Source of the DNA: Planctomonas sp. JC2975
Lineage (GTDB): Bacteria > Actinomycetota > Actinomycetes > Actinomycetales > Microbacteriaceae
Reading direction: 5' to 3'
Assembly (NCBI RefSeq): GCF_012985205.1
Contig: NZ_JABEKS010000002.1
Coordinates: forward strand, 124,001 to 188,000
DNA: 64,000 nucleotides
Position 1 is the first letter of the stretch. Each line of letters begins with the position of its first letter. Under the pieces are notes generated by a model. It saw only the letters and a list, made by a program, of their open reading frames with translations. It was not told the origin of the DNA and searched no databases. Both the position numbers and the translations under genes were made by a program. Positions 15,222-63,488 of the stretch are shown one piece after another.

Positions 15222-15441
15222 GTGCCCGTTTCACCTCCCGAACGTGCCCGTTTCGCCCCCCGAGGGTGCCCGTTTCGCCCCCCGAGGGTGCCCGTTTCGC
15301 CCCCCGAGGGTGCCCGTATCTCCTCCCGAGGGTGCCCGTTTCGCCTCCTGAGGGTGCCCGTTTCATCTCCTGAGGATGCGAGTTCCGCCTCCCGAGAGTG
15401 GCCGTATCTACTCCCGAGAGTGCGCGACTCCGTCCCGGACG
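15222..15441. repeat. Ten tandem copies of a 22-bp repeat
   Basis: Ten head-to-tail 22-bp units start at 15222, 15244, 15266 and so on. Each begins GTGCCCGTTTC or a variant and ends CCCGAGG or a variant. Units 2-4 are nearly identical and the last three are degenerate. There are no spacers. The array ends 2 bp before the stop of the ligase gene. The same unit family recurs at 44351. 15114-15221 shows only the probable rib promoter. Confidence 0.9.
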
Positions 15442-37653: not shown

Positions 37654-39044
37654 GCGACCAAGCGGCCGGCGGGAAGGCCCCTGAAGATGTGACTGACTCA
37701 CCCGCTACTCCGGCCGCGGCCGATGCTTCGTTCGATATCGCGGGCGAAGCGGATGTTGCCGGCGAAGCGGATGTCGCGCTCGAGACGGGCACGCAGGTCG
37801 CCCCCGACGAGCCGGAACCGAACCGCTGGAACGAGGCACTGCGGCAGATCGCCGGCGGAAGTGTCGTCATCTCGATCCTCGCCGTGGTGCTCGCGCTCGT
37901 CGTCGGCGCGATCCTCATCGCTGTGACGGATCCGAGCGTGCAGAAGGCCGCCGGGTACTTCTTCGCCCGTCCCGGTGACACGTTCCAGGCGATCTGGAAC
38001 GTGGTCTCCGGCGCATACAGTTCTCTGTTCCAGGGCGCGATCTACAACTTCGGCCGCCCGACCTTCCTCACTGGCATTCGTCCCTTCATGGACACCTTGA
38101 CGTACGCGACGCCGCTGATCGTGGCCGGTCTCGGTGTTGGTCTCGGCTTCCGCACCGGCATCTTCAACATCGGCGGTCAGGGCCAGATGCTGATCGCCGC
38201 GGCATTCTGCGGCTGGATCGGCTGGTCGTTCGACCTGCCACCGGTGCTGCACCTGGTCGTCGCGATCGTTGCAGGGTTCGTCGGCGGAGCGCTCTGGGCC
38301 GGCATCGCCGGCGTGCTCAAGGCGAGGACCGGCGCGCACGAGGTGATCGTCACCATCATGCTCAACTGGATCGCCTTCTACCTCATCTCCTACCTGCTGC
38401 GTACGCCGGGGGCGCTGCAGCAGCACGGCACGAACAACCCGAAGTCGCCGGCGATCCTCCCGAACGCGATCCTCCCACCGCTGTTCGGACCGCAGTACCA
38501 GCTGCACTGGGGATTCGTGATCGCCGTCGTCGCGACGATCGCCGTGTGGTGGCTGCTGGAGCGATCGAGCCTCGGCTTCAAGTTCCGGGCGGTCGGTGAG
38601 AACCCGCACGCCGCGCGGGTCGCCGGCATCAGCGTGAATTCCGCCATCGTGTGGTCCATGGTCATCGGTGGTGGGCTCGTGGGCCTCGCCGCCGTCGATC
38701 AGGTGCTCGGGACGACGACCGGCGGGTTCGGCTCGTCGATCGACGCTGGCATCGGATTCGACGCCATCACCGTGGCGCTGCTCGGCCGCTCGCGTCCGCT
38801 CGGCATCTTCGTCGCCGGCGTGCTGTTCGGTGCGTTCAAAGCCGGCGGATTCCTCATGCAGGCGGCCAACAGCATCCCGATCGACATCGTGCTCGTTGTG
38901 CAGTCGCTCATCGTCCTGTTCATCGCAGCGCCGCCGCTGGTGCGAGCGATCTTCCGTCTGCCGACCCCCGGCAAGCGTCCGCCCTCGAAGAAGTCGCCGG
39001 CCACGCCGGCATCCGTGGCCCCGAAGGAGGTGGCAGCCAAGTGA
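37650..39044 (+). CDS. Nucleoside ABC importer permease 1
   Basis: A 464-residue BPD_transp_2-type permease with about nine helices after an unusual acidic N-terminal tail of about 60 residues, which includes a short repeat, 'AGEADVAGEADVALE'. 'TYATPLIVAGLGVGLGFRTGIFNIGGQGQM' begins the conserved core (cf. family motif FNIGGQGQ), and 'GENPHAARVAGI' is the ATPase-contact loop. The GTG start and the stop both overlap their neighbours by 4 nt. Confidence 0.9.
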   Translation: MSDQAAGGKAPEDVTDSPATPAAADASFDIAGEADVAGEADVALETGTQVAPDEPEPNRWNEALRQIAGGSVVISILAVVLALVVGAILIAVTDPSVQKAAGYFFARPGDTFQAIWNVVSGAYSSLFQGAIYNFGRPTFLTGIRPFMDTLTYATPLIVAGLGVGLGFRTGIFNIGGQGQMLIAAAFCGWIGWSFDLPPVLHLVVAIVAGFVGGALWAGIAGVLKARTGAHEVIVTIMLNWIAFYLISYLLRTPGALQQHGTNNPKSPAILPNAILPPLFGPQYQLHWGFVIAVVATIAVWWLLERSSLGFKFRAVGENPHAARVAGISVNSAIVWSMVIGGGLVGLAAVDQVLGTTTGGFGSSIDAGIGFDAITVALLGRSRPLGIFVAGVLFGAFKAGGFLMQAANSIPIDIVLVVQSLIVLFIAAPPLVRAIFRLPTPGKRPPSKKSPATPASVAPKEVAAK

Positions 39045-40336
39045 CGACCACCATCGACCACACGATTCCGGATGCCTCGCCGATCGTCCTCGAGAAGACC
39101 GTCGTTCGCAGCTATAAGACGCCGATCATCCTCACGGTCGTCGCCGCGCTGTCGATTGTCCTCTTTGTGATTTTCCGCCGTGGCGGAGACACCACGTTCA
39201 CATTCGCTGGCGGACGCATCGCGCCCAGCCTTCCGCAACTGGTCGTACCCACCACCGCGACGTGCGTGGTCCTGACGATCGTGCTCGTGGTCATGGCTGG
39301 TCTCAGCTGGTGGCTGACGGCGCGCTTCGCGAGGGTTCCACTCTGGTACTCCTCGGTCTTCTCTTTCCTCTTCGTCGTCACGTTTCTCACCTGGGCTGCC
39401 GGCGCGAACTCGCGGCCTCTGCCGATCACCAGCCTGCTGCTCGGAACGGTGAGCCTCAGCGTGCCGTACATCTTCGGCGCACTGGGCGGTGTGATCTCCG
39501 AGCGCAGCGGCGTGGTCAACATCGCGATCGAGGGTCAGCTGCTGGCCGGTGCCTTCCTCGCCGCCGTCGTCGCGAGCATGACGGGATCGGTGTGGCTGGG
39601 ACTGCTGGCGGCACTGATCGCCGGTGTGCTTGTCTCGTTCGTGCTGGCGGCATTCGCCATCAAGTACTACGTCGACCAGGTGATCGTCGGCGTTGTGATC
39701 AATGTGCTGGTACTCGGGCTGACCAACTTCCTGTACAGCCAGGTGCTGTCCAAGGATGCGAGCTTCCTCAACGAGCCGCCATTGCTGCCCGCGGTGCCCA
39801 TCCCCGGGCTCAGCGCCATCCCTGTCATCGGGCCCGTTCTCTTCGACCAGTCGATCATCGTGTATCTGATGTACATCGCTGTGGCCGCTGTCTACATCGG
39901 GCTGTTCCACACGAGATGGGGACTGCGTCTGCGATCGGTGGGCGAGCATCCGCAGGCGGCGGACACGGTAGGCATCAACGTGACGGGAACCCGCTTCTGG
40001 AACGTCTCGCTGGCGGGCGCCATCGTCGGCCTCGGCGGCGCGTACTTCACGCTCGGATCGGTCGGATCGTTCACCGAGGACATGACGGGCGGTCAGGGCT
40101 ATATCGCCCTCGCCGCGGTCATCTTCGGCCGGTGGGATCCGATCAGGGCCACACTTGCCGCCCTTCTCTTCGGCTTCGCCAGCAACCTGCAGTACACGCT
40201 CGCGGCGGTCGGATCCCCTGTGCCCAGCGAGTTCCTGCTGATGCTGCCGTATGTCGTGACGATCCTGGCCGTCGCCGGCTTCGTGGGATACGTACGCGGG
40301 CCCGCGGCATCTGGAAAGCCCTACATCAAGTCGTGA
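39041..40336 (+). CDS. Nucleoside ABC importer permease 2
   Basis: About 431 residues. The GTG at 39041 overlaps the permease 1 stop (GTGA); the longer open frame is spurious. Core motifs are 'ERSGVVNIAIEGQLLAGAF', 'GVVINVLVLGLTNFL', 'GEHPQAADTVGINV' and 'FGRWDPIRATLAALLFGF', as in BmpA-NupABC-type importers. It completes the importer. 113 bp, containing the mini-ORF ladder, separate it from cytidine deaminase. Confidence 0.9.
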   Translation: MTTTIDHTIPDASPIVLEKTVVRSYKTPIILTVVAALSIVLFVIFRRGGDTTFTFAGGRIAPSLPQLVVPTTATCVVLTIVLVVMAGLSWWLTARFARVPLWYSSVFSFLFVVTFLTWAAGANSRPLPITSLLLGTVSLSVPYIFGALGGVISERSGVVNIAIEGQLLAGAFLAAVVASMTGSVWLGLLAALIAGVLVSFVLAAFAIKYYVDQVIVGVVINVLVLGLTNFLYSQVLSKDASFLNEPPLLPAVPIPGLSAIPVIGPVLFDQSIIVYLMYIAVAAVYIGLFHTRWGLRLRSVGEHPQAADTVGINVTGTRFWNVSLAGAIVGLGGAYFTLGSVGSFTEDMTGGQGYIALAAVIFGRWDPIRATLAALLFGFASNLQYTLAAVGSPVPSEFLLMLPYVVTILAVAGFVGYVRGPAASGKPYIKS

Positions 40337-40376
40337 TCCGTGTGCAGTGAAACGGGTGGCGGCCGGACGACGAACC

Positions 40377-40453
40377 ATGACCACAACACGTACCGAGTGA
40401 CTGCAGCCGAGTGACCGGCACCGAGTGACCGAAACCGAGTGACGACAAGATGA
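40377..40453 (+). other. Ladder of five overlapping mini-ORFs leading into cdd (14-bp tandem repeat x4)
   Basis: Four 14-bp repeats (40393-40448, each starting CCGAGTGA) lie before the cdd start. They create a chain of tiny frames, each stop overlapping the next start as GTGA: ATG 40377 (MTTTRTE), GTG 40397 (VTAAE), GTG 40411 (VTGTE), GTG 40425 (VTETE) and GTG 40439 (VTTR). The stop of the last overlaps the cdd ATG at 40450 as ATGA. No ordinary ribosome site is seen before cdd. The arrangement is directly visible; its use in coupling translation is inference. Confidence 0.6.
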
Positions 40454-40875
40454 GCGACGATACGGCGACCTTCTCCGGCGATGTCGACTGGGGTGCGCTT
40501 CGCACCCAGGCCGAGGAAGCGATGAGGCGGGCGTACGTCCCGTACTCGCACTACCCGGTCGGTGCGGCTGCACTCGCAACGGATGGCCGCATCGTCTCGG
40601 GCTGCAACGTGGAGAACGCGAGCTACGGCCTCACCCTCTGCGCCGAGTGCTCGCTCGTCTCCGACCTGCACATGTCGGGCGGCGGCCAACTCGTCGCGTT
40701 CGTTTGCGTGAACGGCGATGGCGACGTCATCATGCCGTGCGGGCGATGCCGTCAACTGCTCTACGAGCACTCAGTCTCGGGGATGCTGCTCGAGACCGTG
40801 TCCGGCATCCGCACGATCGACGAGGTCATCCCTGATGCCTTCGGTCCCAGAGACCTGGAGGCCTTCAGTGGCTGA
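40450..40875 (+). CDS. cdd: Cytidine deaminase
   Basis: A 141-residue homotetrameric-type enzyme converting cytidine or deoxycytidine to the uridine form. The zinc and catalytic motif 'NVENASYGLTLCAECS' (Cys-Ala-Glu) and the second zinc pair in 'MPCGRCRQLL' are intact. Its start is reached through the mini-ORF ladder and its last codons overlap a small ORF (GTG 40868). It acts between import and uridine/thymidine phosphorolysis. Confidence 0.94.
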   Translation: MSDDTATFSGDVDWGALRTQAEEAMRRAYVPYSHYPVGAAALATDGRIVSGCNVENASYGLTLCAECSLVSDLHMSGGGQLVAFVCVNGDGDVIMPCGRCRQLLYEHSVSGMLLETVSGIRTIDEVIPDAFGPRDLEAFSG

Positions 40876-40987
40876 ATGGTTCGACGCAGCGCGCTGGAGC
40901 TGGGAGCAGAGGGCCGGTGGGCCTCTGCCGCGACGCCAGCGCCTCGGCGGCTATGCCGACGAGGAAGGAAGCCGGACTGATGGCTGA
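40868..40987 (+). CDS. Small ORF bridging cdd and thymidine phosphorylase (39 aa)
   Basis: A GTG at 40868 overlaps the cdd stop by 8 nt (GTGGCTGA), and its own stop overlaps the start of the next gene by the same 8 nt (ATGGCTGA). The peptide begins VAEWFDAARW, like the next protein's MAERFDAVDV; about 19 of 22 bases match. It looks like a duplicated gene junction that keeps stop/start coupling. No family is recognised, and it may not matter as a protein. Confidence 0.35.
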   Translation: MAEWFDAARWSWEQRAGGPLPRRQRLGGYADEEGSRTDG

Positions 40988-42263
40988 ACGATTCGACGCA
41001 GTCGACGTCATTCGCGCGAAGCGCGACCACGGGGAGCTGTCCACGCCGGAGATCGACTGGCTGGTCGATGCCTACACGCGCGGATACGTCGCCGACGAGC
41101 AGATGTCCGCGTGGGCGATGGCGGTGCTCCTGAACGGCATGTCACGGCGCGAGATCCGGGACCTGACGCTCGCGATGATCGCCAGCGGCGAGCGGATGAG
41201 CTTCGCCTCCCTCGGCAAGCCGACGGTCGACAAGCACTCGACGGGTGGCGTCGGCGACAAGATCACGCTGCCGCTCGTGCCGCTCGTCGCGTCCTTCGGG
41301 GTCGCCGTGCCGCAGCTGTCAGGGCGCGGCCTCGGTCACACCGGCGGCACGCTCGACAAGCTGGAGAGCATCTCCGGCTGGCGCGCATCCCTGACTGCAG
41401 ACGAGCTCTTCGCGCAGCTTCGCGATGTCGGTGGCGCGATCTGCGCCGCCGGGCCAGGCCTGGCACCCGCGGACAAGAAGCTCTACGCGCTGCGCGACAT
41501 CACCGGAACGGTCGAGGCCATTCCGCTCATCGCGTCGTCCATCATGAGCAAGAAGATCGCGGAGGGGACGAGCGCGCTCGTGCTCGACGTGAAGTTCGGT
41601 TCTGGCGCCTTCATGCGCGATCTCGACAAGGCGCGCGAGCTCGCGCGCACCATGGTGGATCTCGGGCAGGATGCCGGGGTCGCCACCTCCGCGCTGCTCA
41701 CCGACATGAATGCACCACTCGGCCGTGCGATCGGCAACGCGAACGAGGTGCGGGAGTCCGTCGAGGTGCTCGCCGGCGGGGGACCTGCGGACATCGTGGA
41801 ACTCACGGTGGCGCTCGCTCGCGAGATGCTGCGCCTTGTCGGGCAACCGGATGCGGACGTCGAGGAGGCGCTGCGCTCCGGCCGTGCCATGGACAGCTGG
41901 CGCTCGCTGATCCGCGCGCAGGACGGCGATCCTGATGCCCCGCTCCCGCACCCGCGCGAGACCCACACGGTGACGGCACCGCGTTCCGGCGTGGTGTCCC
42001 GACAGGATGCCCTGGCGTTCGGCGTCGCCGCATGGCGGCTCGGGGCCGGAAGGGCGCGGCAGCAGGATCCGGTGCTGCACGCGGCCGGGATCGACCTGCA
42101 CGCCAAGGTGGGCGAGTCCGTCGCTGAGGGCGATCCGCTCTTCACCTTGTCGACGGATGACCCGGTGCGGTTCGAGCGTGCCCTCGATTCCCTCGTCGGC
42201 GCCTGGGACATCGCAGATGCAGCTCCGCCGCGGGCCGGCCTCGTCGTCGAGCGCATCGGCTGA
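40980..42263 (+). CDS. deoA: Thymidine/pyrimidine-nucleoside phosphorylase
   Basis: About 427 residues. The family signature 'KHSTGGVGDKITLPLVPLVASFG' is present, with 'SGRGLGHTGGTLDKLESI' and 'DVKFGSGAFM'. It splits thymidine or (deoxy)uridine into base and pentose-1-phosphate. The ATG at 40980 has AGGAAGG upstream; the frame is open further but the family N-terminus begins here. Downstream of cdd in the salvage order. Confidence 0.94.
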   Translation: MAERFDAVDVIRAKRDHGELSTPEIDWLVDAYTRGYVADEQMSAWAMAVLLNGMSRREIRDLTLAMIASGERMSFASLGKPTVDKHSTGGVGDKITLPLVPLVASFGVAVPQLSGRGLGHTGGTLDKLESISGWRASLTADELFAQLRDVGGAICAAGPGLAPADKKLYALRDITGTVEAIPLIASSIMSKKIAEGTSALVLDVKFGSGAFMRDLDKARELARTMVDLGQDAGVATSALLTDMNAPLGRAIGNANEVRESVEVLAGGGPADIVELTVALAREMLRLVGQPDADVEEALRSGRAMDSWRSLIRAQDGDPDAPLPHPRETHTVTAPRSGVVSRQDALAFGVAAWRLGAGRARQQDPVLHAAGIDLHAKVGESVAEGDPLFTLSTDDPVRFERALDSLVGAWDIADAAPPRAGLVVERIG

Positions 42264-44350: not shown

Positions 44351-44482
44351 GTGCCCGTTCCTCCACCCGAGCGTGCCCGTTCCTCCACTCGAAAGTGCGC
44401 GTTTCTCCCAGCGAGGGTGCGCGTTCCCCCGCGCGAGAGTGCCTGTTTCTCCGCGCAAGCGTGCGTTTTCCCGAGTGCGCGT
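44351..44482. repeat. Second array of the 22-bp repeat, five copies plus a degenerate sixth
   Basis: Units at 44351, 44373, 44395, 44417, 44439 and 44461 begin GTGCCCGTTCC, GTGCGCGTTTC or close variants and end CCCGAGC-like, with the 22-bp period of the array at 15222. The copies are more diverged. The array lies between the convergent EIIB and mutase genes, about 45 bp after the mutase stop. Confidence 0.8.
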
Positions 44483-60770: not shown

Positions 60771-63488
60771 CTATCCAAATATGTTCCAGCCGAAGTCGAC
60801 GTCTTTTCCGAAGTTGAGTCCGGACGGTCGTGCTGTGCTGCCGGCGGTGCCGGTGCCGGAGTAGTAGTAGAGGTTTCCGCTGGGGGTGATTCCGAGGATG
60901 TCGGGTTTCCCGTCTCCGTTGAGGTCGCCTGATGCCACGACCTGGGTGAACATGTTCCAGCCGAAGTCGACGTTTTGTCCGGGGTTGAGTCCGGACGGTC
61001 GTGCTGTGCTGCCGGCGGTGCCAGTGCCGGAGTAGAAGTAGAGGTTTCCGCTGGGGGTGATTCCGAGGATGTCGGGTTTCCCGTCTCCGTTGAGGTCGCC
61101 TGCACCGATCACCTGGGTGAACATGTTCCATCCCCAGTCGACGTTGATGCTGGGTGCCAGGCCGGAGATGTCGTATCCGCTGCCGGTCTTGCCGGTTGTC
61201 CCGGTTCCGGCGTAGAAGTACAGCTGCCCGGTGGGTGTAATGCCCAGCAGGTCGGGTTTGCCGTCTCCGTTGAGGTCTCCGGGTGCGACTATCTGGCTGA
61301 ACATGTTCCATCCGCTCAGGCCGATTTTCTGACCGGGGCCGAATGGTGCGGTTGTCTTCCCGTTCCCCGGGTAGAACCACAGAGTCCCATCCGGCTTCGT
61401 CGCCAGAAGATCCGGACGACCATCACCATTCAAATCCCCCGTCGCCACAATGTGGTTGAAGACGTTCCATCCGAAGTCGACATCGACGGGTGGCTTCAGG
61501 CCAAGGGCTGCTGCGTTTCCCGAGGAGGCGGTTGATCCTGTCCCGGCGTATAGATCGAGATGCCCTTCCGGCGTGACTCCGATGAGATCGGGCTTCCCGT
61601 CTCCATTCACGTCACCTGGTGCAAGGGTGGTGGTGAATGCGTTCCATCCTGTCGTGTCGAGCACGGTGCCAGGATGAAGCCCCGAAGAGATGGCGGGCTG
61701 CCCGGCCGTCCCAGTTCCGAGATACGAATACAAATCGCCTGACGGGGTAATTCCGAGAACATCGGGAATGTGATCTCCCGAGATGTCACCCGCCCCGATC
61801 ACATATGTGAATATGTTCCAGCCGAAGTCGACGTCTTTTCCGAAGTTGAGTCCGGACGGTCGTGCTGTGCTGCCGGCGGTGCCGGTGCCGGAGTAGTAGT
61901 AGAGGTTTCCGCTGGGGGTGATTCCGAGGATGTCGGGTTTCCCGTCTCCGTTGAGGTCGCCTGATGCCACGACCTGGGTGAACATGTTCCAGCCGAAGTC
62001 GACGTTTTGTCCGGGGTTGAGTCCGGACGGTCGTGCTGTGCTGCCGGCGGTGCCAGTGCCGGAGTAGAAGTAGAGGTTTCCGCTGGGGGTGATTCCGAGG
62101 ATGTCGGGTTTCCCGTCTCCGTTGAGGTCGCCTGCACCGATCACCTGGGTGAACATGTTCCATCCCCAGTCGACGTTGATGCTGGGTGCCAGGCCGGAGA
62201 TGTCGTATCCGCTGCCGGTCTTGCCGGTTGTCCCGGTTCCGGCGTAGAAGTACAGCTGCCCGGTGGGTGTAATGCCCAGCAGGTCGGGTTTGCCGTCTCC
62301 GTTGAGGTCTCCGGGTGCGACTATCTGGCTGAACATGTTCCATCCGCTCAGGCCGATTTTCTGACCGGGGCCGAATGGTGCGGTTGTCTTCCCGTTCCCC
62401 GGGTAGAACCACAGAGTCCCATCCGGCTTCGTCGCCAGAAGATCCGGACGACCATCACCATTCAAATCCCCCGTCGCCACGACCGGAGACGGTCGCCATG
62501 CGCTTTGAGTCGTCGCCGTGACTTGGAGCTGGGAGATGTTCCCGTTGAACTCGTCTTGATCGCCGGGAAACACCCCGGAGTCCGCGTACTGCCAGAAGGT
62601 GAACGATGGCCATCCACGCGGGAGTGTCCCAGGGCCGCCCGCAACATTGCTCGGCCAGCTCGCGATGAACAACGGATTGGCCGAGAATCCTGTCGAGTCG
62701 CCCGTGCAGGTTCTCCACCAGTCCGTCGTGGAGTAGATAGCGGGGAGGCGCCCGGTTCGTGAGAGGACTGTACTCGAGAAGCTCGAGATCCACGCAACCA
62801 TGTCGGCCTGGCTCAAGCCGTAACACTCGGAACCGTAGGGGTTGTACTCGATGTCGAGCAGCGGTGGGAGAGTGTGGCCGTCCGGTGTCCACCCGCCGCC
62901 GTTGGAGACGAAATAGTTCGCTTGCGCCGCGCCGGACGAGGTATCGGGGGTCGCGAAGTGATATGCGCCGTGGAAGAGGCCCGCTGACAGGGAGTCGCCG
63001 TACTGCTCACTGAACTGACTGCTCACATAGTCAGTGGACTCCGTCGCCTTGACGTAAGCGAAACGTGCGCCGTTCGCGTATGCGGCGCTCCAGTCGGACG
63101 GGGTGAGCTTCTGCCATGCGCTGACGTCCATGCCCAGCACGCCCGAGGGCTGACCGGAAGCCAATGCCATGGCCGGCACGATCTTGTTCGAATCTGAGGA
63201 ACCGTCGATTCGGGCGGCGATCGTAGATCCCATCGAGTGATTGTGAGCGGCGTTCATGAGCGCGAGGCTCGGATCAGTCCCTTGGACCACCCGGGCCGAC
63301 GCGGTGTGGTCTACTGAGTCCCTGGAGTCGGCTTCGGACGAAGATCGTGTCGAAGCGATGTGCGCCTCGACCATCCGAGAATCTGAGGAATGAGTTGCGA
63401 GTGTCGACCCTGGGAGCAGAATGCCTACGGTGCTGAGCAAGACTGGAACGATGATCCCGAATATGCGGTCGATGCCACGCTTGGTCAC
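60771..63488 (-). CDS. Secreted GH25 lysozyme with ten FG-GAP/VCBS-like repeats
   Basis: About 905 residues. A signal-type helix ('GIIVPVLLSTVGILLPGS') precedes a Ser-rich stretch and a GH25 muramidase domain ('GVLGMDVSAWQ', 'FAYVKATESTDY', 'LPPLLDIEYNPYG' with the catalytic Asp/Glu, 'SFTFWQYADSG'). The C-terminal half has ten repeats of about 57 residues with 'GDLNGDGKPDLLGITP'-like loops. A 1032-bp (344-codon) periodic duplication makes the last four repeats identical to earlier ones. The gene stops in mid-unit (GWNIFG). GTG 63488 with GGGGGG upstream is preferred to the GTG at 63515. Confidence 0.88.
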   Translation of the reverse strand: MTKRGIDRIFGIIVPVLLSTVGILLPGSTLATHSSDSRMVEAHIASTRSSSEADSRDSVDHTASARVVQGTDPSLALMNAAHNHSMGSTIAARIDGSSDSNKIVPAMALASGQPSGVLGMDVSAWQKLTPSDWSAAYANGARFAYVKATESTDYVSSQFSEQYGDSLSAGLFHGAYHFATPDTSSGAAQANYFVSNGGGWTPDGHTLPPLLDIEYNPYGSECYGLSQADMVAWISSFSSTVLSRTGRLPAIYSTTDWWRTCTGDSTGFSANPLFIASWPSNVAGGPGTLPRGWPSFTFWQYADSGVFPGDQDEFNGNISQLQVTATTQSAWRPSPVVATGDLNGDGRPDLLATKPDGTLWFYPGNGKTTAPFGPGQKIGLSGWNMFSQIVAPGDLNGDGKPDLLGITPTGQLYFYAGTGTTGKTGSGYDISGLAPSINVDWGWNMFTQVIGAGDLNGDGKPDILGITPSGNLYFYSGTGTAGSTARPSGLNPGQNVDFGWNMFTQVVASGDLNGDGKPDILGITPSGNLYYYSGTGTAGSTARPSGLNFGKDVDFGWNIFTYVIGAGDISGDHIPDVLGITPSGDLYSYLGTGTAGQPAISSGLHPGTVLDTTGWNAFTTTLAPGDVNGDGKPDLIGVTPEGHLDLYAGTGSTASSGNAAALGLKPPVDVDFGWNVFNHIVATGDLNGDGRPDLLATKPDGTLWFYPGNGKTTAPFGPGQKIGLSGWNMFSQIVAPGDLNGDGKPDLLGITPTGQLYFYAGTGTTGKTGSGYDISGLAPSINVDWGWNMFTQVIGAGDLNGDGKPDILGITPSGNLYFYSGTGTAGSTARPSGLNPGQNVDFGWNMFTQVVASGDLNGDGKPDILGITPSGNLYYYSGTGTAGSTARPSGLNFGKDVDFGWNIFG
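60778..61448. repeat. 671-bp direct repeat, copy 1 (inside the GH25 gene)
   Basis: Appears identical base for base to 61810-62480. It holds the last four FG-GAP-like units and the gene's end. Confidence 0.88.
61810..62480. repeat. 671-bp direct repeat, copy 2 (inside the GH25 gene)
   Basis: Offset 1032 bp from copy 1, an exact multiple of 3, so the reading frame is kept. 361 bp of unique repeat-type sequence lie between the copies. Confidence 0.88.

Follow-up and report, generated by a model that had tools for sequence, protein, structure and literature searches.

A 14 bp tandem repeat between a permease gene and cdd in Planctomonas sp. JC2975 forms a stop-start ladder that may preserve translational coupling

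The cdd locus

The window examined here is a 64,000 nt stretch of the Planctomonas sp. JC2975 genome in which gene calling found the order ATPase - permease 1 - permease 2 - cdd - deoA - adenosine deaminase (Table 1). All three enzymes passed their NCBIfam cut-offs. The best NCBIfam models for the transporter parts were those of a putative B6 ABC transporter and permease and, as these matched far below their cut-offs, the permease is named here just as an ABC permease. The operon probably takes up and salvages nucleosides, with the uptake part suggested by the gene context. Permease 2 and cdd are co-directional, and GTGA overlaps are also found elsewhere in the operon, at the ATPase/permease 1 and permease 1/permease 2 junctions.

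Table 1. Features of the permease 2-cdd-deoA region (window coordinates)
Feature	Position	Strand	Details
ABC transporter permease (permease 2)	39041..40336	+	upstream neighbour of the spacer; stop TGA at 40334-40336 is the TGA of a GTGA
Mini-ORF 1	40333..40350	+	GTG ATC CGT GTG CAG TGA; 4 bp overlap of start with permease stop
Mini-ORF 2	40347..40400	+	GTG AAA CGG ... ATG(40377) ACC ACA ACA CGT ACC GAG TGA; 17 sense codons
14 bp tandem array	40392..40443	+	core CCGAGTGA the same at all four GTGA sites
Mini-ORF 3	40397..40414	+	GTG ACT GCA GCC GAG TGA
Mini-ORF 4	40411..40428	+	GTG ACC GGC ACC GAG TGA
Mini-ORF 5	40425..40442	+	GTG ACC GAA ACC GAG TGA
Weak Shine-Dalgarno-like element	40437..40442	+	GAGTGA, in front of cdd
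Mini-ORF 6	40439..40453	+	GTG ACG ACA AGA TGA; stop overlaps cdd ATG as ATGA
cdd, cytidine deaminase	40450..40875	+	NCBIfam NF004064, above cut-off; ATG at 40450
39-codon mini-ORF	40868..40987	+	bridges cdd stop and deoA start, 8 bp overlaps at both ends
deoA, thymidine/pyrimidine-nucleoside phosphorylase	40980..42263	+	NCBIfam NF004490, above cut-off

The 113 nt spacer between the permease 2 stop and the cdd ATG is an unbroken chain of six mini-ORFs joined by seven 4 bp stop/start overlaps, six of them GTGA and one ATGA. A script that tracked overlapping stops and starts alone passed from the permease stop to the cdd start in seven links, and the overlap expected of a termination-reinitiation coupled pair is present at every step. 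A first-pass annotation had described five coupled mini-ORFs running from an ATG at 40377 to cdd. When the sequence was re-read from 40377 to the cdd ATG, the sequences and coordinates of these five were right, as were the GTGA overlaps between successive frames and the overlap of the last stop with the cdd start. The chain does not begin at 40377, however. The GTG at 40347 is in frame with this ATG, mini-ORF 2 includes the frame that the ATG opens, and the chain extends upstream via GTG 40347 and GTG 40333 to the permease stop.

The GTGA sites at 40397, 40411, 40425 and 40439, each preceded by CCGA, belong to a tandem array that TRF detected with a period of 14 and a direct-repeat search with start-to-start spacings of 14 and 14. 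As the unit holds a GTGA and its length is 2 mod 3, successive frames meet in 4 bp overlaps, each TGA with the GTG that follows it. The ladder would have arisen by tandem expansion of a 14 bp unit within the permease-cdd junction.

The same junction in relatives

The array is absent from all four genus genomes examined, G001 to G004, where the permease-cdd spacers are repeat-free and 53, 46, 58 and 65 nt long, respectively (a 100-base stretch identifies the sequence carried by G003 as that of MAG locus L007). The copy in the window is lineage-specific, with no conservation across these four relatives. Three of the four have one mini-ORF ending on the ATGA of cdd, and none has a chain that reaches back to the permease stop. 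In a scan of the wider collection, the upstream gene overlapped cdd at 34 of 80 loci, was 0-9 nt away at 14, 10-40 nt away at 20 and further away at 12, when spacing was counted by the rough rule of taking the first in-frame start past the upstream stop. As tight spacing of cdd and the gene upstream is common, the long spacer is probably derived.

Nineteen permease-cdd spacers exceeded 30 nt, namely that of the window, those of three genus relatives and 15 others. Complete walks were found in five of them, including the window, against 3.3 expected, which is no clear excess, and in at least two of the five (L004 and L035) the script used an upstream stop that was not that of the permease; the spacing counts at the 80 loci rest on this rough rule as well. 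Within the Planctomonas genome, the paired array unit with 0 mismatches was found nowhere else. With up to two mismatches allowed, unit pairs occurred at 18 sites including three in the array, compared with 21 for a reversed-pattern control.

A different repeat was seen at this junction in Microbacterium arabinogalactanolyticum (L051), where three tandem 18 bp units around CCGTACATCGAGCAC lie just upstream of cdd. The 18 bp unit resembles the end of the permease gene.

Chance, slippage and the ribosome site of cdd

Dinucleotide shuffles of the whole spacer produced at least five linked mini-ORFs in 112 of 20000 cases, and 19.3% contained a complete walk, whatever its length, from the permease to cdd. 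When the array was kept and its flanks were shuffled and trimmed by 0-2 nt, the corresponding figures were 28.9% for at least five linked mini-ORFs and 30.4% for a complete walk. The array is not due to chance, and the ladder follows from it almost automatically: the chain is not improbable once the array is given, because 14 is 2 mod 3. The question therefore becomes whether there is any reason for a GTGA-bearing repeat with a period of 2 mod 3 at this place.

One possibility is neutral slippage. A lineage-specific expansion would have occurred beside the cdd ribosome site, the ladder would come about incidentally, as a unit length of 14 is 2 mod 3, and cdd would start from its own weak Shine-Dalgarno element, GAGTGA, with the mini-ORFs unused. 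The absence of the array from the four relatives fits this account, as does the probability of about 0.3 for a walk once the array is given; the last array unit aligns with AGGTGA of G002, and there are further tandem arrays elsewhere in the window. The ribosome site also fits. The region with GAGTGA scored -6.0 kcal/mol against the 16S tail, near the median of -5.55 for the window's 52 called genes, although a score of -6.0 was reached by 31.5% of 400 random windows and is thus weak evidence in itself. The first-pass annotation had stated that no normal ribosome site precedes cdd, which in view of these values was too strong; what stands is that the site is weaker than those at the cdd starts of the four genus relatives (G001 -6.8, G002 -9.8, G003 -7.8 and G004 -6.6 kcal/mol). 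We regard neutral slippage as quite possible, if on balance doubtful; it leaves unexplained the bias in array period and in exact gene starts seen among co-directional arrays of other genomes, described below.

The repeated CCGAGTGAC units might instead be sites for a regulator, either protein or RNA, or part of a leader-peptide attenuator acting on cdd. An 8-mer core that is invariant in four copies would suit such a leader. However, a promoter-like site was not predicted anywhere in 40150-41050, nor was a terminator-like one in the spacer, both terminator-like matches falling within cdd, and the spacer shows neither the terminator nor the alternative hairpins that an attenuator has behind its regulatory peptide. 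There was no Rfam match at gathering score, the RNA fold of the spacer was no better than that of shuffles (z=+1.24), and exact pairs of the unit are confined to the array. A regulatory leader is, on this evidence, highly improbable.

RTGA arrays in related bacteria

Use of such ladders by ribosomes predicts periods of 2 mod 3 for arrays at co-directional junctions, this being the only phase in which the frame of every RTG terminates at the next TGA. With a period of 1 mod 3, a frame opened by one RTG terminates two units later, and even copy numbers break the coupling. We searched genomes of the window's family for four tandem GTGA sites, at period 14 in 398 genomes and at periods 11, 13, 15, 16 and 17 in 199, and genomes of its order for four RTGA sites at periods 13, 14 and 16 in 198. 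In the family, arrays were present in 10 (period 11), 11 (period 13), 51 (period 15), 15 (period 16) and 13 (period 17) of the 199 genomes, and in 49 of the 398 at period 14. In the order, 19, 52 and 27 of the 198 genomes had arrays of period 13, 14 and 16, respectively. These genome counts per period show no phase pattern by themselves, and only period 14 stands out.

The flanks of the arrays were then fetched and genes were called with a simple codon-score caller that recovers the operon of the window, so that gene starts are predicted ones. From arrays with at least four RTGA, 227 were kept after 25 of short period, 47 duplicates and five with a unit similarity below 0.5 had been dropped, and the final set after collapsing homologous loci was 215. 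Of these, 123 have ladder periods (11, 14 or 17) and 92 are off-phase (13 or 16), period-15 matches being left out of both classes. The set omits some period-13 places of one genome, and places visibly of period 7 or 8 were partly omitted from the fetch, a short-period kind that was dropped anyway. A tight co-directional pair is one in which both genes lie within 100 nt.

Tight co-directional pairs flank 36 of the 123 ladder-period arrays and 7 of the 92 off-phase arrays (p=6.1e-5; this and the other p values are given uncorrected, and arrays that share a genome are not fully independent). Without the window itself the contrast gave p=1e-4, and an earlier version that lacked five period-16 places, with 4/87 off-phase tight pairs (p=4e-6), is superseded by the 7/92 given here. 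Tight pairs in sense and antisense were in the ratio 36:4 for ladder periods and 7:7 for off-phase ones (p=0.0036). Array ends also coincided with gene ends: the last RTG was the start of the next gene in 33/123 ladder-period and 3/92 off-phase arrays (p=1.7e-6), and the first TGA was the stop of the previous gene in 49/123 and 13/92 (p=3.5e-5). Periods 11 and 17 without 14 behaved alike, with 8/25 tight co-directional pairs against 7/92 (p=0.0035) and exact starts in 5/25 (p=0.011). Complete walks were present in 19 of the 36 tight ladder-period pairs and in one of the seven off-phase pairs. In an earlier set of 222 arrays, in which homologous loci had not yet been collapsed, the contrast persisted when the distance cut-off was varied between 20 nt (p=0.009) and 400 nt (p=6e-4), and the last RTG opened a gene-like frame, judged by frame length and codon-position GC alone, in 41/130 against 9/92 (p=1.4e-4). 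Comparable repeats in related bacteria thus seem to keep the one spacing that makes a ladder work.

Enrichment was also found at convergent pairs, where the first TGA was a gene stop in 21/37 ladder-period and 8/28 off-phase arrays (p=0.043). This counts against coupling, as coupling has no target at a convergent pair, and part of the bias at gene ends may be of other origin. At many loci, among them L117, L118, L126, L130, L131 and L133, period-14 RTGA arrays begin exactly at the stop of a gene although the next gene is convergent. Among array-free spacers 6-60 nt in length that both start and finish with RTGA, the ladder phase was not clearly favoured (8/6/2 over the three phases). An excess of walks in ordinary spacers (22 against 12.8 expected, in 285 pairs) is not relied on here, as homologous loci were included and the phases split 8/6/2. 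An optimal Shine-Dalgarno spacing was rejected as the cause of period 14, there being no difference in duplex energy between the array classes, and greater unit divergence as a mark of long-term retention was not significant.

The set of 222 arrays contained 27 complete ladders, of which 12 were inspected by translation and five were sent to Pfam. These five link genes for MoaC and MoCF_biosynth (L157); PALP and GHMP kinase, by eye threonine synthase and homoserine kinase (L275); the SelB C-terminus (SelB wing) and AnmK (L298); a chalcone-synthase-like protein (chalcone-synthase C-terminus) and ICMT (L127); and an 82-residue frame with no Pfam match, antitoxin-like by eye, and a PIN protein (L123). 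By eye, the array units differ in sequence among the 12 inspected ladders, which are therefore not apparently one dispersed element. Elsewhere, one genome has period-16 GTGATCAAGCACTCCC-like arrays at several places (L317 and L366-L370) that look like a dispersed repeat family.

Proposed mechanism

We favour the view that the ladder is a coupling-preserving tandem repeat. A ribosome finishing the permease would re-start, read four to seventeen codons, stop and re-start again until it reached the cdd ATG. There would be no real gap to cross, and a 113 nt spacer, which should weaken or break coupling, would become seven -4 steps. The geometry would matter and the mini-ORF peptides would not. The ladder would in this way have kept cdd coupled to the permease despite the growth of the spacer to 113 nt and, if ribosomes are lost at each step, cdd output would fall with copy number.

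The walk by termination-reinitiation that the first-pass annotation had suggested is plausible, and the phase bias seen in comparable arrays supports it indirectly. We favour it because nothing but translation obviously reads phase, and we put the chance that the spacer is a stop-start ladder on which termination-reinitiation works to a useful degree at about even. What is shown is the geometry, the lack of the array in four relatives and the phase bias of similar arrays at gene junctions; we infer that the ladder is walked by ribosomes in vivo, with cdd output set by the walk and the copy in the window kept by selection. On the other side, seven lossy steps could leave little flux, and a 113 nt spacer might not need a ladder, as some E. 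coli constructs couple over long spacings (PMC12548453).

Coupling could also work through RNA unfolding, one of the two standing models (PMC12548453). Translation of the mini-ORFs would then merely keep the cdd start open for new ribosomes, and no single ribosome would be handed down the chain. The spacer is not strongly structured, however, and unfolding alone needs neither exact overlaps nor a period of 2 mod 3, so we consider it very improbable as the explanation here.

Relation to known systems

Every rung of the ladder is a -4 stop/start overlap of co-directional frames, as in known ATGA and GTGA coupling. Among unidirectional pairs, the -4 overlap is reported to be much the most frequent spacing, and reinitiation in native pairs to favour such short overlaps and to be almost lost at 20-38 nt (PMC10666635). 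Coupling has been demonstrated in 13 of 14 pairs (PMC6728339). The best range is given as -4 to +3 nt, with some E. coli studies reporting coupling at +25 and even at +50 to +350 nt (PMC12548453). The ladder differs in that several rungs four or five codons long, together with a seventeen-codon one, form a chain over a spacer that most reports would regard as too long for coupling.

Mycobacterial interspersed repetitive units (MIRUs) are repeats at gene starts with an ORF coupled at -4 nt, thought to limit the effect of the insertion (PMC12548453). Mini-ORF 6 and the cdd ATGA have this geometry. MIRU units, however, are 40-100 bp long and scattered over the genome (PMC2734929), whereas the ladder unit is 14 bp, was not found in dispersed copies in this genome, and looks different from the units at other loci. 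Coupled short upstream ORFs (nfORFs) are alike in that a short ORF with an irrelevant peptide brings ribosomes to the next gene, but these are single ORFs with a strong internal ribosome-binding site (PMC13255528, PMC12548453), and the ladder is a series of overlapping ORFs with a weak Shine-Dalgarno element, fed from the upstream gene. The tandem repeat upstream of Mtb-fpg1 is variable, lies between neighbouring genes and has a length that correlates with expression, measured at the mRNA level; the account of it that we cite describes no stop-start ladder (PMC2734929).

A limited literature search, partly among the matches listed, returned no description of GTGA ladders. The first-pass statement that no described element of this form is known agrees with that search for the exact form, but close precedents exist in MIRUs and in short ORFs that are singly coupled. 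Coupling at -4 overlaps and MIRUs are already known, and the novelty lies in the shortness of the unit, in the chain and in a phase rule that spans differing sequences. If the proposal is true, tandem repeats in non-coding DNA between genes are constrained by reading phase, and the ladders would be evidence from nature that bacterial ribosomes reinitiate serially over many very short frames. They would offer a direct measure of reinitiation efficiency per step and a simple expression dial, and would explain why inserted DNA is tolerated at some operon junctions. Hand-over by the same ribosome could then be distinguished from unfolding, using the natural series of step numbers.

The cdd-deoA junction and other repeats in the window

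A second bridge lies downstream of cdd. There is an 8 bp overlap between the cdd stop and GTGGCTGA at 40868, and the start of deoA is formed by ATGGCTGA at 40980. These two sites are identical at 19 of 22 bases and were found as a 21 nt direct repeat (90%) with a spacing of 112. The start at 40868 is part of an incomplete copy of the region around the deoA start, which lies 112 bp from it, and this partial duplication of the cdd/deoA overlap keeps phase. An 8 bp overlap needs a spacing of 1 mod 3, which 112 fits, although this is a single case that chance alone would give one time in three. A single 8 bp cdd/deoA overlap, ATGCCTGA, is present in G003 and G004, and G001 and G002 have longer cdd-deoA spacers without ATGCCTGA.

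A wider and more speculative proposal, which we think rather unlikely to hold in full, is that short GTGA ladders are a recurrent, sequence-independent class of intergenic tandem repeat in GC-rich Actinomycetota. Such repeats would arise through expansion at coupled junctions and be kept only if their period is in phase (2 mod 3 for 4 bp overlaps, 1 mod 3 for 8 bp overlaps as in the 112 bp duplication), acting as step-counters that set the protein ratio of neighbouring genes by copy number.

TRF also found 22 bp tandem arrays at 15222-15423 and 44351-44473 of the window, with similar units starting GTGCCCGTT, which are perhaps one repeat family of this genome. A further stretch, at 60781-62346, consists of approximately nine imperfect 171 bp tandem repeats.
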